Assembly (NCBI GenBank): GCA_022729355.1
Contig: JALDAN010000007.1
Coordinates: 1-36,272 of the forward strand
Direction of reading: 5' to 3'
DNA length: 36,272 nt
From: Candidatus Nanohalarchaeota archaeon
Lineage (GTDB): Archaea > Nanohalarchaeota > Nanosalinia > Nanosalinales > Nanosalinaceae
Part shown: in pieces, positions 7,092 through 26,251 of the stretch
Layout: each line of letters begins with the position of its first letter
How positions within the stretch are numbered: the first letter of the stretch is position 1
Notes under the pieces: generated by a model
Seen by the model: only the letters and a program-made list of their open reading frames with translations
Database searches by the model: none
What the model was told of the DNA's origin: nothing
Translations under genes and position numbers: made by a program

Positions 7092-7163
7092 GCGGTGTTG
7101 GTCCAGTGGCTAAGACCCCGGCCTTCCAAGCCGGTGACCCGGGTTCAAATCCCGGACGCCGCA
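7092..7163 (+). tRNA. tRNA-Gly (anticodon TCC)
   Basis: A full cloverleaf can be folded. The acceptor arm is GCGGTGT paired with ACGCCGC, with one G-U pair. The anticodon stem is CCGGC/GCCGG at 7118-7122 and 7130-7134, around loop CTTCCAA, with anticodon TCC at 7125-7127. The T-arm is CCGGG, TTCAAAT, CCCGG. The discriminator is A7163. The 3' CCA is not encoded and no intron is present. It reads GGA codons, which are frequent in these genes. Confidence 0.95.
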
Positions 7164-7260
7164 CTTAATTACTTCTCGAAGCAAGCCTCTGAATTTGGGT
7201 CTTTATTGGGTATGAAACTGTAGAGGCCTCTTAAAAATGGTCGGTTGTAAATTGTGTTGT

Positions 7261-7809
7261 ATGGTATTAGATGATTTATCAGATAAGGAACGTTACGGTG
7301 TAGCCGGTGCTTTTGTAGCGGCTATTGCGGTTTCGCTCGTAGTCGGTTTCGGCGCAGCTTCACTGGGCGATGATGATTTTTCAGCCCAGGAGCTTTCGGA
7401 GGAAGATGCTGAGACTCTAGCACAAGAACTGATGGATCAGGATGTAGCACAGCAGGAGGCACAGCTTTCACAGATTGCTCAGGAAGATGAAAATATTTCT
7501 GAAAACGATATTTCTGTGAGTGCTGATGTTGTAGAAGTTTCTGATAGTGATATTGGATCACTTTTCAGGGCAGAGATAAATGTTGAAGGAAATGTGCCTG
7601 ATCAGCAGGGAGAGATAGAGGAGTTTACTGAAGAACAGGAACTCTATCTTTCAAAGGATGGAAGATTTATTTTCCAGCCACCGATCGATCTAGAAGCACA
7701 GCAACAGGCAGCAGAGCCTCAGCCACAACCTGAAGCCCAGCCGGATCCAGAACAGGATCTTGAAGAGGAACTGGGAGATGACGTCGAAGGAGACGTGACC
7801 ATCGAATAA
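7261..7809 (+). CDS. membrane-anchored acidic Gln-rich protein
   Basis: Starting at the ATG at 7261 (MVLDDLSDKERYG), the protein has one N-terminal membrane helix (GVAGAFVAAIAVSLVVGFGA) and a long acidic, Gln-rich outside part ending in a Pro/Gln/Glu tail. An ATG at 7237 is also possible, but the TTAAAAA stretch at 7230-7236 would then be too close to be its TATA box. A middle section (SLFRAEINVEG, then ELYLSKDGRFIFQPPIDL) resembles the strand pattern that precedes the thioredoxin domain in archaeal exported DsbA-like proteins. No thioredoxin domain or CxxC follows. Function unknown. It contains no AGGCCT motif and ends just before a strong terminator. Confidence 0.6.
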   Translation: MVLDDLSDKERYGVAGAFVAAIAVSLVVGFGAASLGDDDFSAQELSEEDAETLAQELMDQDVAQQEAQLSQIAQEDENISENDISVSADVVEVSDSDIGSLFRAEINVEGNVPDQQGEIEEFTEEQELYLSKDGRFIFQPPIDLEAQQQAAEPQPQPEAQPDPEQDLEEELGDDVEGDVTIE

Positions 7810-7820
7810 AAACAATTTTC

Positions 7821-7857
7821 AGGCCTCCAACGTAGGAGGCCTTTCTTTTTTTATTTT
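7821..7857 (+). terminator. hairpin terminator from two AGGCCT copies
   Basis: AGGCCTCC at 7821-7828 and GGAGGCCT at 7835-7842 pair perfectly over 8 bp around a 6-base loop. A T-rich tract (TTCTTTTTTTATTTT) follows. Each arm contains an AGGCCT, so the iterated motif itself forms the stem. Confidence 0.75.
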
Positions 7858-13603: not shown

Positions 13604-14347
13604 ATGGCTGATGGAGAGAGCATTAAAGCCGATCTACATATCCACTCAGATGCATCTCACGACTGCAATGAGCCGATAGAGCTGATTCTTGAGCACGCTG
13701 CAGACATAGATATAGATGCCATAGCTATAACAGATCATGACTCTATAGAAAACTCTCTCAAAGCCACAGAAAAGGCCTCAGAATACGGCTTAATCGGGAT
13801 TCCTGGCGTAGAAGTCTCAACGGCCGACGGCCATTTACTTGCTCTTGGAGTCCAGGAATGCCCGGAGAAGGGAAGGCCTTTCCACGAGACAGTTGAAAAG
13901 ATAAGAGAACTAGGAGGCCTCGCAGTAGTGCCTCACCCTTTTCAGAGGACGCGTCACGGCGTGAAAAAATCAGATATCAAGGACTGCGACGCAGTAGAAG
14001 TATACAATTCTTGGTCCTTTACAGGATGGAAAAACAAGAAGGCCCGTAAATTCGCAAAGAAGAATAATTATCCTGAAATAGCAGCAAGCGACGCACACTC
14101 TATAGGAATGATAGGACAGGCTTACACAGAAATAAATACGGCGTTCGCAGAAGAAGAATTTGAAGCCGAGGACGTACTTGCTGCAATAGAAACAGGATCG
14201 AATTATATGTACGGAAAGCGAAAGCCTGTTGCACTGAGTCTATGGGACTACGGAAAAGCACTTACAAAGAAAACAGTCTGGCTACTTAAAGAGACAGTAC
14301 TGCTCCCATTAGGCATCAAAAAATACTTCAATCGCTGGCTTGATTAG
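13604..14347 (+). CDS. PHP-domain phosphoesterase
   Basis: A PHP metal-dependent phosphoesterase related to the YciV/TrpH group, which acts on phosphate esters such as 3',5'-bisphosphonucleotides or RNA ends. Metal-binding motifs from the ATG at 13604 are DLHIHSDASHD (H12, H14), ITDHDS (D44, H45, D46), GVEVST (E70), VVPHPF (H111) and ASDAHS (D163, H165). A TTG at 13595 would add three residues. The C-terminal 45 residues contain a hydrophobic, basic stretch (TVWLLKETVLLPLGIKKYF) that may touch the membrane. The 3' end overlaps the convergent sufT-like gene by 4 bp. Confidence 0.88.
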   Translation: MADGESIKADLHIHSDASHDCNEPIELILEHAADIDIDAIAITDHDSIENSLKATEKASEYGLIGIPGVEVSTADGHLLALGVQECPEKGRPFHETVEKIRELGGLAVVPHPFQRTRHGVKKSDIKDCDAVEVYNSWSFTGWKNKKARKFAKKNNYPEIAASDAHSIGMIGQAYTEINTAFAEEEFEAEDVLAAIETGSNYMYGKRKPVALSLWDYGKALTKKTVWLLKETVLLPLGIKKYFNRWLD

Positions 14348-14673
14348 AATCCCTGCATACCCGGAAGATGCCCTAACTTTCCCCTACCTTCTTCAGACAC
14401 CATGTCAGGATTCCAGCGTGGCTCGAAAGTCAGTTCTACTTCTATATCAGCCTCTGAAAGGCCTTCAATCTTTCCTACTTCCCTCCGCACCATTTCATCA
14501 AAGATACCGTGAAGAGGACATCCAGGAGTAGTCAAAGTCATCAAGATATAGACTTCATCCTCCGATACATCCACTTCATATATCAGGCCTAAATCAACGA
14601 TATTGATATCCAGCTCAGGATCCATAACGTCCTTGAGCTTATCACGCACCTTCTCCTCAGTTACACCTTCCAT
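14344..14673 (-). CDS. SufT/MIP18-like Fe-S protein (DUF59)
   Basis: A 109-residue DUF59/MIP18 family protein, associated with maturation of Fe-S proteins. The family pattern is clear: DVMDPELDINIVDLGLIYEV at 15-34, then the MTLTTPGCPL strand with the conserved cysteine C52, then VELTFEPRW. The RWNPDMVSEEGRGKL end matches archaeal and PaaD-like members. The sufS-sufU and sufC genes lie 11-14 kb away, so the Fe-S genes here are scattered. It is divergent from the secreted protein at 14825 across a 151-bp intergenic region. Confidence 0.88.
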   Translation of the reverse strand: MEGVTEEKVRDKLKDVMDPELDINIVDLGLIYEVDVSEDEVYILMTLTTPGCPLHGIFDEMVRREVGKIEGLSEADIEVELTFEPRWNPDMVSEEGRGKLGHLPGMQGF

Positions 14674-14824: not shown

Positions 14825-15526
14825 ATGAAGTTAGACAAGAGCATCGCAGTACTTGCGATGGTTGCTTCACTAATCCTAGCCACAACAGCAGTTGCGGCTC
14901 AGGACAATCAGCCTACACAGTCATCAGTCAGCGACGTAGACACACTTGATCAGTACTTCGCTGAATCTGACGATGAAGTAGAGGTATACGGTGGAAATGT
15001 TACTCAGGCCAATCTTGACTCTGAGCAGTCCACCGATAACTGGGCTGGTATCTATGGTAACGCATCCGGTAACCTGGTTTTAGGAGCCGGTGAAGAAGGA
15101 GACGTCCTTTTCGACTGGGATGCCTCCGCAGATTATGTCTTCGCGTCAAGTGACGACGTTGTATGGTCAAACATCACAAACGGAACAGCAGAAACAGTGA
15201 ACAACTTCTACGGTCTAGAAGTTGAAGATAGCGACAGCGCTGAAGATACCTTCAACGCTGAAGATAACGCAACTGTAGATGTTGCACGCGAAGAATACGA
15301 AGGTGACACAGCACTAACCAACGGAGACGAAGACGAGGAATGGTCAACAGTTGTCCTTGAAGACAACTCAAGTGACATAGACACAACACATGTTCCTGTA
15401 TTCTCAGGAATCGTTGGTGAAGGTGACTCAGCATTCAACGGAGACGAAGCTGATTATCAGATGATTCTTCCGGCTGAAGACGACACAGAACCAAGATCCT
15501 TCGACATGTACCTAGAGCTAAGCTAA
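14825..15526 (+). CDS. secreted acidic surface protein, NWAG family
   Basis: A 233-residue secreted protein with a signal peptide (VLAMVASLILATTAVAAQ) and a very acidic mature part. TDNWAGIYGNASGNLVLG near 70 and the C-terminal DYQMILPAEDD pattern recur in the next gene (SSNWAGVSGEV and NYQFMLPQIDD), so the two are distant paralogues. I associate the NWAG-x-YGN pattern with surface proteins of other archaea, but cannot verify this here. The strong TATA box, the double upstream repeat, even codon use and absence of AGGCCT suggest a highly expressed gene, possibly a major envelope component. No enzymatic residues are seen and there are no cysteines. Confidence 0.75.
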   Translation: MKLDKSIAVLAMVASLILATTAVAAQDNQPTQSSVSDVDTLDQYFAESDDEVEVYGGNVTQANLDSEQSTDNWAGIYGNASGNLVLGAGEEGDVLFDWDASADYVFASSDDVVWSNITNGTAETVNNFYGLEVEDSDSAEDTFNAEDNATVDVAREEYEGDTALTNGDEDEEWSTVVLEDNSSDIDTTHVPVFSGIVGEGDSAFNGDEADYQMILPAEDDTEPRSFDMYLELS

Positions 15527-15556
15527 AGCAACCATCAGTAACAATCTTTACTTATT

Positions 15557-15574
15557 CCCTCTTTTTTTCTTTCT
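15557..15574 (+). terminator. T-tract terminator
   Basis: CCCTCTTTTTTTCTTTCT lies about 30 bp after the stop of the 14825 gene. It should separate this gene from the large surface genes that follow. Confidence 0.45.
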
Positions 15575-15662
15575 ATCAGAAAGTGGAAGGCCTCCATCGT
15601 GTTACTCTAACAGTCTTTAAAATCACGTTTAACGCAATATAATAACAAAGAGAGGCCTAGGT

Positions 15663-17270
15663 ATGCGCGACTTGGATATCAATTTTGAACGTTTGGAGCT
15701 GGATGCTGAGAAAGCTGTTCTTGTAACAGGATTAGCGACTGTTCTACTAGGCCTTGTTATTGCTGGCAGTATAGGCTTGGAAGCAGGCACAGTTGTGCAG
15801 GCAGTTCTTTCCACAACTTCGGTATCAAGTAACTGGGCTGGTGTTTCAGGAGAAGTTACTGAAGTTCAGGAGCAGACAGCGATGCCTGTAGATTTTTTCT
15901 TTGTAGATGATTCTAGGACAGGATCAGTTCATACAGTTGATTTAGATGGAAAGGTGGATGGATCGCATTTCTTTGCCGCCCTGCCTTTCCATACAGATAA
16001 CTTTGAACGAGAAAAACTTGAGTCTATCTCTCTCAGTGATTTGGAGGCTGGAGGCCTTTTCAGTCAAGAAGATTTCCCTATTTTCTATCCTAACGCTTCA
16101 AGCTACGACAGTGTGAACGACAATCCTGAGAATACTTTTGAGGAGACTGAGACTATCAGAGTGTTGAACAGGGAGTTAGAGGCTGCGAAGACAGAGTTCA
16201 ATGGAGGGCTGGAGTACTATTTATTAGCCTATGACACAGGTGATGGAACTCAGCCGCTATTCATTAACCATATAGATGAGTACGGCGAGTGCTACGATGG
16301 AAATGAATGCAATTACCAGTTCATGCTCCCGCAGATAGATGACGATTACAGCTTCTATCAGTTATCCGAAAATAATCCTGTGGACGTGACAGTGTTGATT
16401 GATGGAGAGGAGACCACAAGCTTCCCTTTCACCGGGAGGCCTTACAACCTTACAGTTCAGACTGTGGCGATCTTCCAGGACTTTGAACCAGCGGAGACCG
16501 AGATACGGGTGACGGAGACAGAGGGTAATAATATCTTTACACCTGCGATAAGCGGAGACTACAGCTCGGACGCTCAGACAATAACTGAGACAGATGAAGG
16601 AGAGGCCTCTCTGATGTACAGTCCTACAGAATACAATTCTCCGGAGAACTATAATTTGAGTGTTGATGTGTATAATGATGGAGAGGCCTTTCAGAGTGTT
16701 CCTTTGAGTGTTGAGAATGATAATATCGAGTTCACTGATGCTGGGCCTGTTGAGAAAGGATTTGATGAGTTTGAGAATGAGTACAGGCGTGGCGTAGATC
16801 GTTTGAGGCCTATAGCTAACTGTATGTTTTCACAGGTTAATTCCGAGGAGGCTTACAGGCTTGAAGCTACTGTTAATGAGAGTTATGAAGTGGTTCGTGG
16901 TGTGCCTTATGTTGTTGATGTTGATGAGGCCTCTTTCTTCAGTTTGGAGGAGAGAGGTAGTCACTTGGTGATGAGTCCTGGGCGTATTGAGGATTCTATT
17001 CATCTTGAGTCAGGTGGAAGTCCGTATTCTGCCTCTGATAGTGTTGTTTTCACTCCGACTCTCTCAAGTAATGAGGATGATGATCTGTCGGTGAGTCTTC
17101 TGGATTCCCAAGGTGATTTATTAGGCGAAACGAATCTTTCAGTAAGGGATGCAACATGCGGAGAAGTAACGGACGGCGATCTTGTTGAACCGCCAGAACT
17201 TACAGATTTCAAGAGAAGGGTGAACAACATCAGGCCTGTCCTGAACAGCCTGTTCGTGGCAGGAAGCTAA
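15663..17270 (+). CDS. large anchored surface protein, NWAG family
   Basis: A 535-residue protein with one N-terminal membrane helix (about 19-40, AVLVTGLATVLLGLVIAGSI) and an acidic outside part. SSNWAGVSGEV near 55 and NYQFMLPQIDDDYSFYQL near 220 match the smaller protein at 14825. Residues from about 260 on look like beta-sandwich repeats (VTVLIDGEETTSFPFTGRPY, then a section on EASLMYSPTEYNSPENYNLS), typical of Ig-like surface modules. Paired Cys (GECYDGNEC) may form a disulfide. A TATA-like ATATAATAA about 20-28 bp before the ATG points to its own promoter. It is followed within 30 bp by another surface gene. Confidence 0.7.
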   Translation: MRDLDINFERLELDAEKAVLVTGLATVLLGLVIAGSIGLEAGTVVQAVLSTTSVSSNWAGVSGEVTEVQEQTAMPVDFFFVDDSRTGSVHTVDLDGKVDGSHFFAALPFHTDNFEREKLESISLSDLEAGGLFSQEDFPIFYPNASSYDSVNDNPENTFEETETIRVLNRELEAAKTEFNGGLEYYLLAYDTGDGTQPLFINHIDEYGECYDGNECNYQFMLPQIDDDYSFYQLSENNPVDVTVLIDGEETTSFPFTGRPYNLTVQTVAIFQDFEPAETEIRVTETEGNNIFTPAISGDYSSDAQTITETDEGEASLMYSPTEYNSPENYNLSVDVYNDGEAFQSVPLSVENDNIEFTDAGPVEKGFDEFENEYRRGVDRLRPIANCMFSQVNSEEAYRLEATVNESYEVVRGVPYVVDVDEASFFSLEERGSHLVMSPGRIEDSIHLESGGSPYSASDSVVFTPTLSSNEDDDLSVSLLDSQGDLLGETNLSVRDATCGEVTDGDLVEPPELTDFKRRVNNIRPVLNSLFVAGS

Positions 17271-17300
17271 AACAAAAAAAAGTGAGAGGATGAAAAATAG

Positions 17301-19016
17301 ATGAATCGAAAACACGTTGCACTGGCTTTAGCATCTTCCCTGATCTTTACGCCTTTAGCGGCAGCGGAGCTAGAGGCCTATATTGTGGAGTCAGGACCTG
17401 AAGAAGTAGAGGAAATGATTTACACATGGGGAGATCCGGACACTACTCCTTACTACCAGGACGCACAGTCCTATCCTGATGTAGGCCTCATGATTTGCAG
17501 GAGCGATGGCGACGTACAACAGGACTACTACGTCGGAGTAGAGTATAGTCTGGGAGGTGAGTCACAGCTCGTCAGTTACGGAACAGACAATACACTGGAA
17601 CCTGCAGACGATCCCGTAACTTTTGAAGGAGGTCTTTGCCGTATGACTTCGATTGGAGGCCTGACGATTTCACCTTCGGAGATTTCCGGGACTCCTGAGA
17701 CAAAGATTGCTGCTTTCCCTGGAGAGGCCTCTGCATTAGTTGCTGAACAGGTTGACGGATCAGATGCTGAACGAGTTGAGACAGGAAGCGTTATGTCAGG
17801 AGGGTACTCTGGCAGCATGAGCTATGATCACGAGTCAAACAGTATCAGTCTTGATGTAAGCAGTATATCGGTTGATTCAAATATCGGTACGGAGACGTTC
17901 AGTCCGGGAACTGACGGCAGAGGTGTAAGTGAGTCTAGGCCTCTTATCGTCGGTGTGTGCGGAGATTCTTCCGGTGATTCCTGTAACGGATTGGTTGAGA
18001 AGAAGACTGACTCTTCTTTCCCTGAATCCTTCGGATTTGATGTAGATGAGGACGAAGTGAATGATCAGAATGTTTACACTCGTTATGGTTTGGCGAACAG
18101 CAAAAATATTGACAGCATCGATATCGGTGCAGATGCCAGTGTTCAAGGCCTTTCAGTAGACAGTAGCACTGTTTTCTATTCTCAGACGCAAGGAGTCAGT
18201 TTCTCAATCAGTAACAGCGGGAATGTACCTATAACGAGTGAGTTCGAGGTGGAGGCCTCTATCACAGGTAACGGCGAAGTCGTGGATAGCAGAAGCTTTA
18301 CTGTCAGTGATGGATTAGAGCCGGGGGAGAGTGAGAGCTTTAGTTATGACTGGGAGGCCTTTGATGAGTCAGGTAGTTATACTGTGGAGGTTACTGCGGA
18401 TACTGATAATGATCTCGCCGAGTTGAATGAGTTAAGTAGTTCTACTCGTTCATTCAGCCTTGAGACTGTTGCTTTTCCGGAAGTGATTGTTGATGGTGTT
18501 GAGAAATCAGTTGAGGATACAGAGTTTGCTTCTGCTGGTTCTCCTTACAACTTTACACTGGTGATGCAGGACTCCGATAACAATACACTGGATAACTCGG
18601 AGATTACTATAACTGAGGAGGATGGAATGGATACGCTGGTGCCTCATCAACGGCTTGAGGAGGACTCCTTTACGGATATGATGAAGACTTCGACATTCAC
18701 GACTGACGAAAACGGGACTGCAAGCATAACATTCACACCGACCGGCAACGTTTTGCTTGCGGATCGATACAATGAAACAGATATACAGGATAATATAGAC
18801 TACTCACTGCAGTTCACAGGAACCCACAGTGGCGATGACCTGACATTTATCGTGGATGAAGAGCCTACCAGCACTTACCCGCTTGAAGTAGAAAACCCTG
18901 GCAGTCTGGATGAAAAAGAGGCCTCCTCAGATCTTCCTAACCTTGATGGATACGTCAAGGCAGTGATGAACGGAGTATACACCGTATTCACAGAGTTCTG
19001 GGGCGCGGTAACATGA
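17301..19016 (+). CDS. secreted surface protein with CARDB-like domain
   Basis: A 571-residue secreted protein with a signal peptide (HVALALASSLIFTPLAAAE). The N-terminal third is unrecognised and has paired cysteines (MICRSDGD, GGLCRM, VGVCGDSSGDSCNG). Residues of about 280-385 fit a CARDB adhesion-like beta-sandwich (VSFSISNSGNVPITSEFEVE, then GLEPGESESFSYDWEAF, then YTVEVTADTDNDLAELNE). A second Ig-like part follows at about 395-520, with the ENGTASITFTPTG strand. The C-terminal amphipathic YVKAVMNGVYTVFTEFWGAV resembles the end of the preceding protein (FKRRVNNIRPVLNSLFV) and may be a shared anchoring tail. Its stop overlaps the next start (ATGA), so the genes form one operon. Confidence 0.75.
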   Translation: MNRKHVALALASSLIFTPLAAAELEAYIVESGPEEVEEMIYTWGDPDTTPYYQDAQSYPDVGLMICRSDGDVQQDYYVGVEYSLGGESQLVSYGTDNTLEPADDPVTFEGGLCRMTSIGGLTISPSEISGTPETKIAAFPGEASALVAEQVDGSDAERVETGSVMSGGYSGSMSYDHESNSISLDVSSISVDSNIGTETFSPGTDGRGVSESRPLIVGVCGDSSGDSCNGLVEKKTDSSFPESFGFDVDEDEVNDQNVYTRYGLANSKNIDSIDIGADASVQGLSVDSSTVFYSQTQGVSFSISNSGNVPITSEFEVEASITGNGEVVDSRSFTVSDGLEPGESESFSYDWEAFDESGSYTVEVTADTDNDLAELNELSSSTRSFSLETVAFPEVIVDGVEKSVEDTEFASAGSPYNFTLVMQDSDNNTLDNSEITITEEDGMDTLVPHQRLEEDSFTDMMKTSTFTTDENGTASITFTPTGNVLLADRYNETDIQDNIDYSLQFTGTHSGDDLTFIVDEEPTSTYPLEVENPGSLDEKEASSDLPNLDGYVKAVMNGVYTVFTEFWGAVT

Positions 19017-21364
19017 AAAAAACAGGCCTCATCCTCGCCATAACGATAATACTTACAGGGGCTGCAGCAGGCCTCGAAGTATCTTTCGTGGATGAAGAAG
19101 AAAATCTTCAGGGATCTGAGTTCGATGCTATCGATCCCGGAGACTTCTACAGTGATTTTCCTGAAGAGTTCGATAGGCCTGATGAGATAGGAAGTTACTC
19201 ATTCACTGACAGCTCTCTAGTCACTCCAAATCTTTTATTACAGTACGAGGCTGAAGAGGATCTTTCAGGTGAAGAAATGGAGATTTACTACAGTTCCCTG
19301 AGTGGAGATCTGAGGAGGCCTGTCTCTACTTTTCCTGCTGTGCTTGAAGGAAGTAGTGGTGTAGCTGAAATAGAGATATCCAGCTTTGAAGCCCTTTATC
19401 CCGGCAAAATCTTCGCTGAAACAGAAGGAGAGTTCGTGGAAGTTGAAGAGGGTCTTTTTCCCGGTAACTACAGTTTGAGGCCTGATGTCTCTTTTTCTGA
19501 AGGTAAAAGTTTCGTAGAGGTTGAGGCTGCTTTCGATTCTTCGGGAGGTGAGATTCATGCTGGCCGTGATCTGAGTCAGGATTTGCTTCTTTCTGTTGAG
19601 CGTGGTGAAGATGTGGTGGCTGAAGATGATGCACGTCTTGGAGGTGTTGCAGAGCTCGACACGGTACTGGAGCAGGGAGATACTATCTACGTGAACAGTA
19701 TCCCGGTAATGGATGTACGTGAAGCTGCAGCATGCCAGATCATCAATGAATCCGATTCTTACTTCCTGATGAATGAGAGCTTTTTTAATATAGATCCTGA
19801 AGGGCCTGGAGGTGGAGAAGATTCCTGTATAAAAATTGAAGATGTGGAAAATACAGTAATAGACTTCGGAGATAACACTCTGAACGGGCATGGAAACTTC
19901 TCCAATACAGAGGCTTGTGGACTGAGAATCGAAGACTCAAATAATATAGAAGTCTCAAGCCCAAGAATACAGGAGTTCAGCAGAGGCCTATGTGTAGAAA
20001 ACTCGTCCGAGGTTATGGTTGAAGGAGACTCTCTGCAAGAGAACAGGATTGGGGCTTACAGCAACGATTCGGAGGCCTCTCTCACAGACTTGGTAATGAA
20101 TAACGAGTTCAGAGAGTTTGTGGGAGAGCAGTCATCGTCTTCAGTCCTTACAGATATCTCCTTTACTTCGGCAGAGGCCTCGGTTGAAGGAGTTGATCTT
20201 GAGGTTGATAGTGTTGAGAGTCCTCCTTCAGATCCTGAGGATACAGAGAGCACTGGTCAGTATCTTGAAGTTGAGGGTGAAGCCGGTTCACTGCTTGAGA
20301 ATCTGAGCTTCAATTATGAAGAAGAGCCTGACGACATATATCTTTTCAACGGAGGAAGTACTCAGTTAGAGGCCTCTTCCGATAGTGAGTCGATTTTTAC
20401 AGAAAATGAGTTAACTGATTTTGGAGTCTTTGGAACGTTTATTCGTTCAGAGGAGGAAGATGACGAAGATGATGAGGAAGACGATGATACAGGTAATGGA
20501 GGAGGTGCTGGTGGTGCGCCGCCTGAAGATCCGCCTCCTGAACCTGGTCCTCCTGATCCTCCGCCAGGACCCCCAACCGGAGTTCCTGGACTTGATGATG
20601 AAGATATCCCGGAAGTAGAATTAGTGTTGCATGATGAGAGAGTAGAGGTTGATCAGGGTAGAGCTTTTGAGGCAGGTTTTGATGTAGAAGTCAATGGCAA
20701 CGTATCAGCCCCTAATGTAGATGTAGAGGCCTTTCCGGAAAGAGATGGATGGGATACTTCAGGAGATACTTTATCTGAAATACTGCCTGGTGAGACAGGT
20801 AGTGGCTCTGTATTAGTTGATATTTTTCAGGGCGAGATGATTGGAGAGTACGATGTTCGTTTGGAGGCCTCTACTGTGATTAATGATACCGAGGTTTCTC
20901 TGGATAATGAGAGTTTGGCTGTGGATGTAGTTGCGAGAGATGAGGTACGTGATTTATATGTGCTGGAGGCTCCTCATGAAATCAATATTACTGAGGATAC
21001 TGCGAGGAGATTAAGTTTTGACTTGGCTAATGCTGGGGAGTTCCGGCTTGAAAATGTAACTGTTGAAGGACGTGATCTTGATAGATGTCTTCCTGAGATC
21101 AGGGGCAGCTGGAGTTTCGATAAAGACGTGAGGGAGACTTTTAATTATACAGCAATTAGTGGAGAGTCTGGAGAAGTTTGTGAAGGAGCTTTTGTCTTCA
21201 GTTCAGAGGAGGAAGATTTCTTGACTCTTGTGCCTGCCGAAGTACAGGTTGTGGAGAAAAGTATAGCTGCAAAACTTACCAACAATATACTGCCGATAAT
21301 AGTGATGATTTGGACAGTAATCACTGCACACAGAATCAAGAGGCGATACTACGATGACGAATGA
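19013..21364 (+). CDS. large anchored surface protein, beta-helix and stalk
   Basis: A 783-residue surface protein: signal peptide (MKKTGLILAITIILTGAAAG), unknown N-terminal region, and a section at about 275-370 with parallel beta-helix rungs (TVIDFGDNTLNGHG, CGLRIEDSNNIEVSSPRI, GLCVENSSEVMVEGDSL). An Asp/Glu run then leads into a Gly/Pro-rich stalk near 480-535. A NEW3/CARDB-like beta-sandwich follows, and then a C-terminal membrane helix (ILPIIVMIWTVITAHRI) with a basic tail. The layout suggests a protein held on the cell surface with its head projecting. It overlaps both neighbouring genes, so it belongs to the 17301-21626 operon. Surface binding is an inference from domain type. Confidence 0.75.
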   Translation: MKKTGLILAITIILTGAAAGLEVSFVDEEENLQGSEFDAIDPGDFYSDFPEEFDRPDEIGSYSFTDSSLVTPNLLLQYEAEEDLSGEEMEIYYSSLSGDLRRPVSTFPAVLEGSSGVAEIEISSFEALYPGKIFAETEGEFVEVEEGLFPGNYSLRPDVSFSEGKSFVEVEAAFDSSGGEIHAGRDLSQDLLLSVERGEDVVAEDDARLGGVAELDTVLEQGDTIYVNSIPVMDVREAAACQIINESDSYFLMNESFFNIDPEGPGGGEDSCIKIEDVENTVIDFGDNTLNGHGNFSNTEACGLRIEDSNNIEVSSPRIQEFSRGLCVENSSEVMVEGDSLQENRIGAYSNDSEASLTDLVMNNEFREFVGEQSSSSVLTDISFTSAEASVEGVDLEVDSVESPPSDPEDTESTGQYLEVEGEAGSLLENLSFNYEEEPDDIYLFNGGSTQLEASSDSESIFTENELTDFGVFGTFIRSEEEDDEDDEEDDDTGNGGGAGGAPPEDPPPEPGPPDPPPGPPTGVPGLDDEDIPEVELVLHDERVEVDQGRAFEAGFDVEVNGNVSAPNVDVEAFPERDGWDTSGDTLSEILPGETGSGSVLVDIFQGEMIGEYDVRLEASTVINDTEVSLDNESLAVDVVARDEVRDLYVLEAPHEINITEDTARRLSFDLANAGEFRLENVTVEGRDLDRCLPEIRGSWSFDKDVRETFNYTAISGESGEVCEGAFVFSSEEEDFLTLVPAEVQVVEKSIAAKLTNNILPIIVMIWTVITAHRIKRRYYDDE

Positions 21365-21626
21365 AAACAAAACAACTCTGCATGAAAAAGTAATACAGGA
21401 TGTGGAAGAGGTAGCTCAAAAGATAGAGTCACGGTTCCAGCATGGAGGCCAGACAGAGAAAAATATACAGGAATTTCAGCAGAACATAGAAGAAAGAGAG
21501 GCCTCAAAAGAAGGAAGCAACTGGATGGAGGAACTTGATCCGGTTACCCTTGGCATCTTGGTAGTTGAGATAGCTCTTGTAACTTATCTTATTCTAGCTC
21601 TAGCAGGATATTTACCGATGTTCTAA
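21354..21626 (+). CDS. small single-TM protein of the surface operon
   Basis: A 90-residue protein with a charged, helical N-terminal part (about 60 residues, coiled-coil-like) and a single C-terminal membrane helix (VTLGILVVEIALVTYLILALAGYLPMF). It would sit with its soluble part on the cytoplasmic side as a tail-anchored protein, or be a small subunit for its neighbour. It overlaps the large surface gene by 11 bases, so translation is coupled. No family recognised. Confidence 0.7.
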   Translation: MTNENKTTLHEKVIQDVEEVAQKIESRFQHGGQTEKNIQEFQQNIEEREASKEGSNWMEELDPVTLGILVVEIALVTYLILALAGYLPMF

Positions 21627-21695
21627 TGGTAGAAATAGAATAAGAGAAAAATATGTGGAGGCCTTCTTCTCCCATACGGCTTTTTTGAAGATTAG

Positions 21696-23381
21696 TTATT
21701 TCAGGCCTCTGTACTTCTGCTTATCTCTTCTCCTTTTCAGGTAATAGAGTAAAAGCAGGAGTAGTAGCAGGATAATCAGTATTGGCCCATACTGTACTAT
21801 TATCACTAGGACTCCTCCCTCACGGACTTCCATATCTGTCTGCTCAAATAAGTAAAGATCCTGTGCTGTATCAACAGTGTCTCCTGCAGTAACTGCTAGT
21901 GAAAGAGGATTATTTTCCTCAAGATCCTCTTCAGACATATAAGCTGCTACCGTAAGGGTTTCAGAATCGCCTGGTTCGATTTCTGCTACTTCATCAGTTA
22001 CAGGTTGGACCGTCCGATCAAGCAAGTTAAGATCAAGCATGTGGGCGCCAGTGTAAACATTTTCATCGCCTTCATTTGCAACTTCTACATGGATTTCCTC
22101 TGCGTTTTCATGATAATAGAAGCTTTCAAGCTCTATCTCAGAGGCCTCCCAACTATCAACTGTCTCTACTTGATAACTGCGAGAGCTTATACCTGAGGCT
22201 CCTTCATATCCGAACGATACCTCTGCAGTTTGAGGATCAAAGTCCATACTTGAATTGAAATGTAAAGTTGTTTTTCTGTCAGGCCTTGTTACTATTTCCT
22301 GATCCTCTGATATAATTTCTTCTCCTCCATTTCCACTAAGAGAGATTGCAGAAAATGTTATTGGTGTTTCAATGGTTCCTTCATTCTCAAAAACTATCTC
22401 AACAGTCTCAGTATCCTCTGCATACTTAACTGAATCAACTGATATATCTCTTATTATTGGCTCTCCCGGGATTTGCTTAACAGGGAAAGTTGAATCAAGA
22501 CCTTCTGCTCCTGTAAATCTTCTTCCGAACTTAGCTATTACTGTAGTGTTTTCACTTATTCTGTCTTGTAGAGTATCCCCAAAATCAACATTTTCTCCTC
22601 CTATAACCTCGACTGCTTCAAAGTCTAAATCATTAATAAGATTAGCAGTAGCATCAACATCTCTGGCTAAAATCACAGGATCACCTTTTTTCATAAAACC
22701 TCTCTCAAGATAACTATCTCCTGCAACTATCACAGACTCTCTATCATGATTCTCTGTTACTTCTCTCACCAATCCTCTGTTATTTTGCTCTCTTGAATCT
22801 TCTGACAACACTCTGTGATCATGATTGTCTGGGAGTGTTCTCCAAGGCTGTTCTAAAAATTCTCCGTAGAAAATTACTTCTTCATCATCTAAATCTGATT
22901 CAAGGAATTCTTGAGTGTCTTCTCCATCATAATAAATAGGCCAGTAATCTGCGTTCACAACTTGAGGAAAAACCGAAATAATATCCATTGTGAAATCTGG
23001 CTGTATGACTACAATACCTTCAACATCATCTTGATGTTCTTCATAGAATTCATACTGTGACTCCTGCCAGTCTAGAGGGGAAGAATCTACATCCTGTAGC
23101 CCTTCATTCTGAAGAAAATTATCAAAGTTTTCCCATACTGCCGTATCCGGGTCTTCCGGTTCGTAAACTGTATGACTTCTATTATCAAGCAACATTTCCG
23201 AAATTATTTGTCCCTCTCCCAAACTAGTGACAGCGTGAACCTCTTCATCAGCGAAATGGCTTTTAGCTATAACAATAGAATTATCCTTCCATTCCTCAGA
23301 GTTAGTTACCAGATCAGCTGATGCAAAACCTGATACTCCTATTACAAATATACCAAGAATTACTAGACCCCTAATCCTCAT
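21696..23381 (-). CDS. anchored surface protein, CWB2-like head
   Basis: A 561-residue protein with a signal peptide (LVILGIFVIGVSGFASA), a large outside part and a C-terminal membrane helix (ILIILLLLLLLLYYLKRRR) with a basic tail. The part at about 215-295 (RESVIVAGDSYLERGF, DPVILARDVDATANLIN, AVEVIGGENVDF, TTVIAKFGRRFTG) follows the order of the cell-wall-binding CWB2 repeat, in which IVGG and R-x-x-G-x-x-R motifs recur. The middle contains CARDB-like beta-sandwiches (IVFENEGTIETPITF, HVEVANEGDENV). No AGGCCT occurs in the N-terminal two thirds. It converges on the surface operon and is followed upstream by a DUF2070 gene. Confidence 0.65.
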   Translation of the reverse strand: MRIRGLVILGIFVIGVSGFASADLVTNSEEWKDNSIVIAKSHFADEEVHAVTSLGEGQIISEMLLDNRSHTVYEPEDPDTAVWENFDNFLQNEGLQDVDSSPLDWQESQYEFYEEHQDDVEGIVVIQPDFTMDIISVFPQVVNADYWPIYYDGEDTQEFLESDLDDEEVIFYGEFLEQPWRTLPDNHDHRVLSEDSREQNNRGLVREVTENHDRESVIVAGDSYLERGFMKKGDPVILARDVDATANLINDLDFEAVEVIGGENVDFGDTLQDRISENTTVIAKFGRRFTGAEGLDSTFPVKQIPGEPIIRDISVDSVKYAEDTETVEIVFENEGTIETPITFSAISLSGNGGEEIISEDQEIVTRPDRKTTLHFNSSMDFDPQTAEVSFGYEGASGISSRSYQVETVDSWEASEIELESFYYHENAEEIHVEVANEGDENVYTGAHMLDLNLLDRTVQPVTDEVAEIEPGDSETLTVAAYMSEEDLEENNPLSLAVTAGDTVDTAQDLYLFEQTDMEVREGGVLVIIVQYGPILIILLLLLLLLYYLKRRRDKQKYRGLK

Positions 23382-23548
23382 GTAAACCTATAGACCTCTA
23401 CAGATTTATAATGTATAGCATCATTTTTACAATTAATTCCTATCTAACCAGAACCCTACTACCTCAACAACAATTCTTTCACTATAAACCAACATCTTCG
23501 ACAAATAATCAGTATCAACAACTAACTTTTCAGTCAGTAGACCCTACC
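23382..23548. other. 167-bp A/T-rich intergenic gap
   Basis: I see no gene, tRNA or repeat here. It separates two minus-strand genes and is A/T- and C-rich with no AGGCCT. It must hold the promoter of the 21696-23381 gene, but no box stands out. Confidence 0.4.
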
Positions 23549-25195
23549 TTAAAGCAGCCAGAAGACAAGAAGCAGATATAGAAACAGTAGTGCGATCGGG
23601 AGTAGACGGACAAGTATATTTATGGAATGTATTATGCCGAAATAATCATCGCAGAGAAACTGCATCTCCTGTGCTTTAGCGACGGAAAAACCCGTAGAGG
23701 CCTCAGATACATCCTTCTCTGCATTTTCTATCACTTGTCTCATTTCTTTTTCATCTACGTGCTTTTTACTCGCTAAGTCGTGTACGCTGGCATGTGTGTC
23801 AGTTGTAAAAAGTAAAGCATGATCGAAATGATTTCCAAGATCTTCTCTAAGATTTAAAATATCTTGAGAGGTATCATTTCCTTCAAAACCAAAGATTACT
23901 GTTCTCTGGCCTCCTGTCTCCTCTACCATAGCCATAGAAGGATTTTCGTCTGCTGATATATCGATTCCTGCTCTATAATTGTAGAGTTCCTGATCGTCCA
24001 GTTCATCTATGAAATCTAGGAGGCTTTCACGGGCCTTTTCTGCCTTTATTGTCCCGTAACGCATTTCCTTACCGTTGCTTGATTTTGTCTGATTGTGCAG
24101 ATCGATAAGAAGCACATCCTCTTTATCTATAACTTCCTGAAATATTGCAGCATCATAGTCATCAAAGCCCTCGAACTCCATATATACAATCTTCTGTTCG
24201 CCGAGTCTGCGGCCATAGAAACAGCAGAAGCCATAATCCTTCTTGATTAAATGTGAGGCCTTTGAGGATTTATCGACTTCTTCAGAGGCCTCAAGTATTT
24301 TACTTGAGTCTCCAGGATCTGAAGGATCCATCTGATGGCATGAGGGAACATGGAGGAAGAATCCTTCTCCATCCTCGTTCAGTTCTTCTATGATATCTGT
24401 CGTGATTTTTCCTCCTCCAAATCCCTGTATAGGACCTGGATGCACCCACGGCGCGAGGAATGTTTTCAGGCCTGATCTGTTCTCTACCTTCAGTGTCTGA
24501 ACGTCAGGCCTGACTTTTCGTCCGAGATCAAGCTTCTCCTGTCTGTTCTGTAGAAGTGCCGTTGCTAGACCGAAGATTGAAATTTCAGGTGTGTTAGAGC
24601 CTATCAGGAACTCTGTCAAGTAAAATGCAGTAAGTAATGCAAGGCCTGTCGCCAATACCACAAGCAAGTTGAATAGATAAGCTGTAAGCGTTATCTGGAA
24701 GTAGCTTCCAAGTATCAGATGAAAACCAGCAAGTATCAAAGCCGGTTGAAGTATACTCAGTAAGGAAATCCTCTTTATATACTGAGGTCCGTTTGAAAGC
24801 ACCAGTATAAAGAAGTTGGAAGCATAAAGAGTAGATACGCCTAACCAGATTATATTCCAGGCCACTTCAAAGCTGCCTGCCAACGATATGAGGACTGTAA
24901 ACAGAAAGATTATCAACTGATTCACCACTGAAAGAAAGTACCCCCATTTACGTGGATACTCGGGCAAAGAAAAGCTGTAGGCCTCCGACGCCAGTACAGA
25001 CGGCAAAATAAAGAGGAAAAGACCTATCAGAGGTGCCAGAAGCGGCTCGTAAGCTATATCTATTCTATCTGTGAAAAGCAGGAATATTATCAATCCATAG
25101 AGGAGGCCTGTAGCTACGACTAGCTTGAAGGTATCTCTAAGCCTTGGAAGGCGGAATATTACTTTCCGGAAAATATCAAGATTGTCCGCAGCCAT
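23549..25195 (-). CDS. DUF2070 family membrane protein
   Basis: A 548-residue membrane protein of the archaeal DUF2070 family, whose function is not known. Six or so helices fill the first 215 residues, one or two more lie at the C-terminus (about 520-548), and a large soluble domain lies between. The soluble domain has the family's conserved stretches FLAPWVHPGPIQGFGGGKIT and HVPSCHQMDPSDP, rich in His, Asp and Gly and suggestive of metal binding, plus DLHNQTKSS, GRRLGEQ and FTTDTHASVHD. It lies between a glycosyltransferase and a CWB2-like surface protein, all on the minus strand, which hints at a part in building the envelope. That is inference. Confidence 0.82.
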   Translation of the reverse strand: MAADNLDIFRKVIFRLPRLRDTFKLVVATGLLYGLIIFLLFTDRIDIAYEPLLAPLIGLFLFILPSVLASEAYSFSLPEYPRKWGYFLSVVNQLIIFLFTVLISLAGSFEVAWNIIWLGVSTLYASNFFILVLSNGPQYIKRISLLSILQPALILAGFHLILGSYFQITLTAYLFNLLVVLATGLALLTAFYLTEFLIGSNTPEISIFGLATALLQNRQEKLDLGRKVRPDVQTLKVENRSGLKTFLAPWVHPGPIQGFGGGKITTDIIEELNEDGEGFFLHVPSCHQMDPSDPGDSSKILEASEEVDKSSKASHLIKKDYGFCCFYGRRLGEQKIVYMEFEGFDDYDAAIFQEVIDKEDVLLIDLHNQTKSSNGKEMRYGTIKAEKARESLLDFIDELDDQELYNYRAGIDISADENPSMAMVEETGGQRTVIFGFEGNDTSQDILNLREDLGNHFDHALLFTTDTHASVHDLASKKHVDEKEMRQVIENAEKDVSEASTGFSVAKAQEMQFLCDDYFGIIHSINILVRLLPIALLFLYLLLVFWLL

Positions 25196-25246: not shown

Positions 25247-26251
25247 TTATAACTCTCTGTCAGAGGCCTTCCATTCAACTCCCTTCCCAGTAATAGATCT
25301 AAAGATATTAACTATACCGCAGAAAGTGATGAACCATGCAAAAATGAAGAGATGAACTCCACGTGATAGAGGCGTGCTTATCCTTCTCTCAAGGACAGCT
25401 TTGAAAGCTGAGTGGACGAATGCGAAAGGACTGAATAAAGCCGAGAAGAAAGGACCGGCCATAGCTGAAAACCACGAGACCTTAACTTTCAAAGACAGAT
25501 TACTGGAAATAAACGGTTTTGTGAAGTGTCTGAGGCCTTCAATCGCCCCATTCATCCATCTCAGTTTCTGGTTATACAGATCCGGGAAGTTTGTGACTGC
25601 CTGCTCTCCAACATACGACTCAGTGTTAAGCGCAGGCCTCTTCCCATCCAGATACGCCCTCTGAGTCAAGTCAGTATCTTCACACATCCTTGATTCATCA
25701 AAGCCTTTCTCCATCAAATACTGGCCGTCTAGAACAGCTATCAGCCCGTTGAAATGATTGAATCCCTCTGTTCTATCCAGCAGCTTCTGCATATCCATCA
25801 GGAAATCGTACTCTGCATCAACCAGTCGCGTTACAAAATTCCTGTCCGGATTCAAAATCTTGCGGGGACATGTCGACATGAATACCTCTTCAGATGAATC
25901 CAGCTGAACTTTACAGGCCTTCAAGAAGTTCTTCCCGGGCCTGGAATCTATATCAAATATGGCCACGTATTCAGGATCTTCAAGCTGTTCAAGGCCTTCA
26001 TTCAGGGCTCCTGCTCTTCTTCCCCTGGTTGTAGTTCGGACTACAACATTGACTTCATCAGAGGCCTCTTCATTGAGGAACTCTACTCTTTCATCATCTT
26101 CTGGATGCTTATCAGTGTCTATTATATAATGAAGTTGCTTCTGTAGGCCTTCAGGCATCTCCAGCTGTTTCAATGACTTTACAGATTCTCTTATTATCCG
26201 CTCTGGCTCGTATGGGGATACAGGGATAAGTATCTCTATTTTCTCGGTCAC
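25247..26251 (-). CDS. family 2 glycosyltransferase
   Basis: A 334-residue processive-type GT2 enzyme that moves a sugar from a nucleotide-sugar donor. The DxD motif is D100-D102 (VAIFDIDSRP), the catalytic EDTD is at 191-194 and QKLRW is at 228-232, the set found in cellulose and hyaluronan synthase-like enzymes. After residue 250 come two to three membrane helices (VSWFSAMAGPFFSALFSPFAF and GVHLFIFAWFITFCGIVNIF). It would act at the inner face of the membrane. Donor and acceptor cannot be told. It lies 51 bp upstream of the DUF2070 gene and may be co-transcribed with it, consistent with glycan synthesis at the cell surface. Confidence 0.85.
   Translation of the reverse strand: MTEKIEILIPVSPYEPERIIRESVKSLKQLEMPEGLQKQLHYIIDTDKHPEDDERVEFLNEEASDEVNVVVRTTTRGRRAGALNEGLEQLEDPEYVAIFDIDSRPGKNFLKACKVQLDSSEEVFMSTCPRKILNPDRNFVTRLVDAEYDFLMDMQKLLDRTEGFNHFNGLIAVLDGQYLMEKGFDESRMCEDTDLTQRAYLDGKRPALNTESYVGEQAVTNFPDLYNQKLRWMNGAIEGLRHFTKPFISSNLSLKVKVSWFSAMAGPFFSALFSPFAFVHSAFKAVLERRISTPLSRGVHLFIFAWFITFCGIVNIFRSITGKGVEWKASDREL

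Follow-up and report, generated by a model that had tools for sequence, protein, structure and literature searches.

In the stretch of nanohaloarchaeal DNA analysed here (36,272 nucleotides, hereafter the window), a run of six genes at 14825–23381 encodes five acidic proteins that are exported or anchored, termed P1 to P5 (calculated pI 4.05–4.07), together with a membrane protein of 90 amino acids (Table 1). An initial annotation had described five acidic secreted or anchored proteins lying together at this locus; both this grouping and every open reading frame that it named are borne out, and the gene for the small membrane protein, which is conserved, is to be added to its list. P2, P3, P4 and the small gene are closely spaced (a gap of 30 nt between P2 and P3, and overlaps of 4 nt between P3 and P4 and of 11 nt between P4 and the small gene), which suggests that they form one transcript. 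P1 has its own TATA-like box (TTTATAAACC, at about 14790). Such boxes lie about 30 nt 5' of the start codons of both P1 and P5, so that P1 is probably leaderless and P5 may be leaderless too. The CARDB-like and beta-helix parts already attributed to two of the proteins are confirmed by Pfam matches to CARDB in P3 (E 1.7e-10) and to a NosD-type beta-helix in P4 (E 3e-5); P3 has no transmembrane (TM) helix at its C-terminus.

Table 1. Genes of the surface module and of its flanks, with positions in the window
Gene	Position	Strand	Features
MIP18/DUF59-like gene	14344..14673	-	Left flank, outside module
P1	14825..15526	+	Signal peptide; NWAG domain reaching C-terminus; homologues in other genomes
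P2	15663..17270	+	N-terminal TM segment; NWAG (residues 40-232); then two beta-domain plus amphipathic-helix units
P3	17301..19016	+	Signal peptide; conserved N-terminal part; CARDB; one beta-domain plus amphipathic C-terminal helix
P4	19013..21364	+	NosD-type beta-helix; Pro-rich linker; NEW3-like domain; hydrophobic C-terminal segment
Small TM protein, 90 aa	21354..21626	+	C-terminal TM helix; end ..PMF; overlaps P4 end
P5	21696..23381	-	Signal peptide; three CWB2-type alpha/beta repeats (about residues 22-285); two Ig-like domains; C-terminal TM helix; short basic tail
DUF2070	23549..25195	-	Right flank, outside module; E 4e-60
GT2 glycosyltransferase	25247..26251	-	Right flank, outside module

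In the window, P1 to P5 sit exactly between the DUF2070 gene and a gene that, from a reading of its sequence, we take to be MIP18/DUF59-like. In another genome of the same genus (G001), 153 bp separate DUF2070 and the MIP18-like gene, and no module gene intervenes. Because both flanks adjoin there without it, the module is, as judged by gene order, a discrete block that has been gained or lost within the genus. DUF2070 and GT2 had been noted as following the surface genes; they are present as described, but membership of the module is rejected on the arrangement in G001 (GT2 of the window lies on the far side of DUF2070, and so outside the block that G001 lacks) and on the failure of the window's DUF2070 to find a counterpart in nine tested genomes outside the genus. 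The palindrome AGGCCT occurs 163 times in the window against 8 expected. Its density is likewise about 4 per kb in a second contig of the genome (G000:C6, L085) and in L019 of another genus (G017), and 0.1 per kb in L086 of G001; there is none in L017 and L020 of G022. It is perhaps an uptake-type or methylation-linked signal.

P1 and P2 share the NWAG domain. A profile built from five nanohaloarchaeal copies, with P2 excluded, finds residues 40–232 of P2 with an E value of 3.6e-12 and also matched many proteins elsewhere; because a P2-free profile recovers P2, the kinship of the two proteins is, on the profile evidence, not due to chance. Of the two motifs originally ascribed to them, NWAG stands as a common feature, whereas NYQ-x-MLP has to be rewritten as [ND]YQxx[LV]P, the sequences being DYQMILP in P1 and NYQFMLP in P2. 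The family is defined by [WxGxxG], DSxxNT, P(I/L/V)F and an [ND]YQ-type motif, followed by a C-terminal strand; P1, P2 and a protein of 3103 amino acids from the same genome conform to this. There is no meaningful match to NWAG in Pfam or NCBIfam, nor any match by sequence in the PDB. A known fold was also sought with an AlphaFold model (pLDDT 78, pTM 0.72) and rejected, there being no PDB match below E 0.5; among viral structures there was none below E 0.1. No description of the family was found in the literature searched, which was covered with limited terms and excluded subscription journals.

The domain ends three residues or fewer from the C-terminus in 62 of 71 complete copies. Beyond the signal peptide, no credible TM segment is seen in these 62 proteins, with two exceptions: one looks like a gene fusion or an overcalled start, and the other has a marginal score. 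The 3103-residue protein, encoded on another contig (G000:C15, L021:3702-13013), is Ig-like and contains DUF2341; its C-terminus is formed by NWAG and lacks a TM helix. Other surface proteins, of 850–1959 residues, have a C-terminal domain that is homologous to NWAG, though divergent (hhalign probability 99, E 1e-18), and the large NWAG proteins carry adhesin domains of the LamG, F5/8, Ig or beta-helix type. P2-type proteins are the exception, in that NWAG lies near the N-terminus with the other domains after it. A search for NWAG in other DPANN surface proteins, as the initial annotation had proposed, thus locates it in several DPANN lineages, very long surface proteins included.

When 85,000 species of bacteria and archaea were scanned with one conserved NWAG pattern, which, being single and short, overlooks distant copies, 19 named relatives were returned. 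These belong to the Aenigmatarchaeota, Woesearchaeota, Nanoarchaeota, Micrarchaeota and Nanohalarchaeota, along with one record titled Euryarchaeota SM23-78, the CWB2 gene of which groups with Woesearchaeota in the CWB2 tree. A 26-row NWAG profile gave matches in 16 of 297 sampled archaeal genomes. The distribution is patchy: NWAG is present in 24 of 146 genomes of the phylum of G187 (Micrarchaeota-like, as inferred from the CWB2 tree) and in 59 of 236 genomes of that of G161 (Woesearchaeota-like on the same grounds), where there are often 6–9 copies. Genes for a sigma-region-4-like and an ArsR-like helix–turn–helix protein directly precede NWAG genes in woesearchaeotal arrays (L058:5559-6128 and 7150-7833), with similar genes in L054, L056, L057 and L066; this suggests local regulation of variant copies.

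Within the nanohaloarchaea, a CWB2-type gene (the P5 family, described below) was found in about 7, and NWAG in 4, of the 28 genomes examined. Seven single-contig genomes, 95–99% complete (G003, G004, G006, G009, G010, G011 and G016), contain neither NWAG nor a full-length CWB2 gene, and cultured species bound to haloarchaea are probably among the module-free genomes. That most nanohaloarchaeal genomes lack the module speaks against its being generally needed for contact with haloarchaea. Of the two roles first suggested for the locus, a possible part in the cell's own coat is supported, while a specific role in haloarchaeal contact is not, the gene set also being spread beyond the Nanohaloarchaea. 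DPANN archaea are mostly ectosymbionts, and the NWAG-anchored large proteins, together with P2 to P4, might be adhesins aimed at an archaeal host, as the LamG and F5/8-type domains of the former would allow. We regard such a recognition system as improbable, given that the module is conserved across lineages of unrelated habitats and probably unrelated hosts, is absent from most nanohaloarchaeal genomes, near-complete ones included, and in the window includes no recognisable lectin domain in P1 to P5.

P1, P3, P4, the small TM gene and P5 are common to the window and three further loci (L055, L060 and L081), and a fourth (L068), the contig of which ends within P3, has P1, P5, P2 and P3. P2-like genes occur in L068 and L081, and L081 has P2, P3 and P4 in the order of the window with an identical 4-nt overlap of P3 and P4. 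Counterparts of the module genes occur in genomes of the Aenigmatarchaeota, the Woesearchaeota/Nanoarchaeota and the Micrarchaeota. The P3 orthologues align over their full length with 27–39% identity. Equivalents of the small TM gene, with ends ..PFF or ..PIF, follow P4 in L017, L055, L060 and L081; these four loci, but not the window, also have an extra TM-plus-coil protein of 144–153 amino acids. Full-length P3 was found in no other sampled nanohaloarchaeal genome, and the P2–P4 part may be a candidate for horizontal transfer into the lineage of the window.

It had been suggested that amphipathic C-terminal tails shared by P2 and P3 are an anchoring signal. The shared tail is real at the level of the family, since four of five P3-family tails are amphipathic relative to shuffled sequences at p < 0.01 and the other at p 0.03. 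Taken alone, the tail of P2 in the window is not significantly so (p 0.17), and the helix recurs inside P2 as part of a repeated unit; the first unit of P2 matches P3 with a probability of 98 (E 1e-13), and the match within P2 has a probability of 94 (E 1.7e-7). A simple terminal anchor is therefore rejected in part, and because of the repetition within P2, a structural or oligomerisation helix would fit the sequences better.

The assignment of the head of P5 to CWB2, proposed at the outset, holds through the family profile, which matches Cwp6 of Clostridioides difficile (PDB 5j72) with an E value of 1.2e-10; it rests on this profile because P5 of the window by itself has no match to Pfam CW_binding_2, a model matched by 4 of 15 family members (best E 4e-4). 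A structure model of P5 contains three alpha/beta repeats and two Ig-like domains and supports CWB2 loosely, the Foldseek matches being limited to the Ig part; this part pairs with a WxLIP structure (9i1y, E 1e-6), to which the Ig tandem bears a loose resemblance in fold. Each of the 27 complete CWB2-type proteins carries a TM helix at its C-terminus. Zinc-ribbon models match 3 of 15 CWB2-type proteins, and those of L054, L057 and L058 have a cysteine-rich, probably cytoplasmic, tail after the TM helix. Nanohaloarchaeal CWB2-type genes form two well supported groups in a tree, one with P4 (the window, G002 and G022) and the other mostly with small NWAG proteins. A single vertical line is thereby rejected, G022 carrying both. 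In three contigs from nanohaloarchaea (L017:4789-6344, L018:15514-16284 and L020:368-1132), genes for ParA/MinD-type ATPases are found close to the CWB2-type gene.

A CWB2-type gene is present in 16 of 16 sampled genomes with NWAG, as compared with 20 of 298 genomes that have strong matches to the family overall (hypergeometric p 4e-23, with no correction for relatedness). The two genes are 4.4 kb apart in the window. An NWAG gene is no more than 1 kb away from 21 of 29 CWB2-type genes, a count in which most loci had been reached by way of NWAG. Of the 17 named loci from outside the nanohaloarchaea for which NWAG was the sole seed, 11 include a CWB2-type gene in the available DNA. This universal pairing of NWAG with a membrane stalk, the tandem arrays of up to 6–9 small, secreted, beta-rich NWAG proteins, the TATA-like leaderless promoter and the S-layers observed on DPANN cells (PMC8975820; PMC11291902) are all consistent with NWAG proteins being lattice-forming S-layer subunits, with the CWB2-type protein, P3 and P4 as a stalk that holds the lattice above the membrane. 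Although this is the main rival reading, we consider it unlikely: the many divergent NWAG paralogues per genome and the fusions to very long proteins fit display better, and most nanohaloarchaeal genomes are without NWAG although Nha. antarcticus shows an S-layer.

We are confident that the locus is a conserved surface module common to DPANN archaea; its function we infer from sequence. The best reading, to which we give about an even chance, is a non-covalent coat or display system: NWAG would serve secreted proteins as a docking or assembly domain, and the CWB2-type protein would be its membrane-held partner, binding either NWAG or a glycan on which NWAG sits. CWB2 in C. difficile binds a cell-wall polymer, and by analogy the head of P5 may bind glycan instead of NWAG. 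Small NWAG proteins would form or stabilise a layer, and large ones would expose adhesin parts of the LamG, F5/8, Ig or beta-helix type; P2, P3, P4 and the small TM protein would be a co-transcribed accessory set of stalk and base. The layer would be mainly the cell's own coat, with contact to other cells made through the displayed domains. As the gene set recurs in distant DPANN lineages, a shared system for coat or adhesin display is favoured over a tool for one type of host. Against docking is the position of NWAG on the N-terminal side in P2-type proteins, a position not expected if NWAG acted purely as a C-terminal sorting domain.

The closest parallel is with the WxL clusters of Gram-positive bacteria (small WxL, large WxL and WxLIP, i.e. 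DUF916-DUF3324-TM), in which an Ig-Ig-TM partner is proposed to bind WxL (PMC10599100). Common to both are a small protein consisting of the domain only, large proteins that carry the domain C-terminally, after their adhesin parts (the long NWAG protein being encoded on another contig in the genome of the window), and, in the same cluster, a partner in which two Ig-like domains precede a C-terminal TM helix. In contrast to WxL, NWAG has no matched fold, its partner has the extra CWB2 head and the cells are archaeal and not known to have peptidoglycan. The Pfam WxL model matches neither P1 nor 26 NWAG members, and DUF916-DUF3324 is not among the 25 Pfam families listed for 15 P5-family members. 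As these membership tests failed, the module would work like a WxL system rather than be one by sequence homology. The P5 family likewise has CWB2-type repeats in a surface protein in common with SlpA and Cwp6 of C. difficile, but is TM-anchored, has two Ig-like domains after the head and lacks both an amidase and an S-layer region. Giant surface proteins of the same phylum, SPEARE among them, are also very long Ig/LamG proteins, described as TM-anchored with cytoplasmic nuclease or ATPase parts (PMC6642349, PMC10266531), whereas the 3103-residue protein ends in NWAG.

Some neighbouring genes invite a different interpretation, namely a surface enzymatic or assembly system, for example for handling envelope protein or polysaccharide, with the CWB2 and NosD parts acting on glycans. 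Glycan genes, so read from their sequences, adjoin the cluster in G002, and a MoxR-DUF58-VWA operon lies beside it in three DPANN genomes of different lineages (L017:7142-10271, L053:9887-13396 and L055:8831-11717; assigned by domain search for L055 and the VWA genes, and otherwise by position and sequence reading). The NosD-type beta-helix of P4 also counts in its favour. Such a function is nevertheless very improbable, as Pfam and NCBIfam searches recognised no catalytic domain in P1 to P5.

Few genes have been named for the surface of DPANN cells, through which they meet their hosts. The present analysis offers a defined, searchable protein family and gene set of several DPANN lineages, names a likely membrane partner, and sets a general coat or display system apart from host-specific adhesion; concrete predictions follow, on the binding of NWAG to the CWB2-Ig ectodomain and on the location of these proteins on the cell. 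A bolder version, which we hold only tentatively and think rather less probable, is that NWAG is a DPANN-wide, non-covalent display domain of undescribed fold, an independent archaeal counterpart of WxL that was lost in most haloarchaea-associated nanohaloarchaea. On this version, a CWB2-Ig-Ig receptor held in the membrane would be the means by which DPANN archaea attach a coat as well as very long adhesins.
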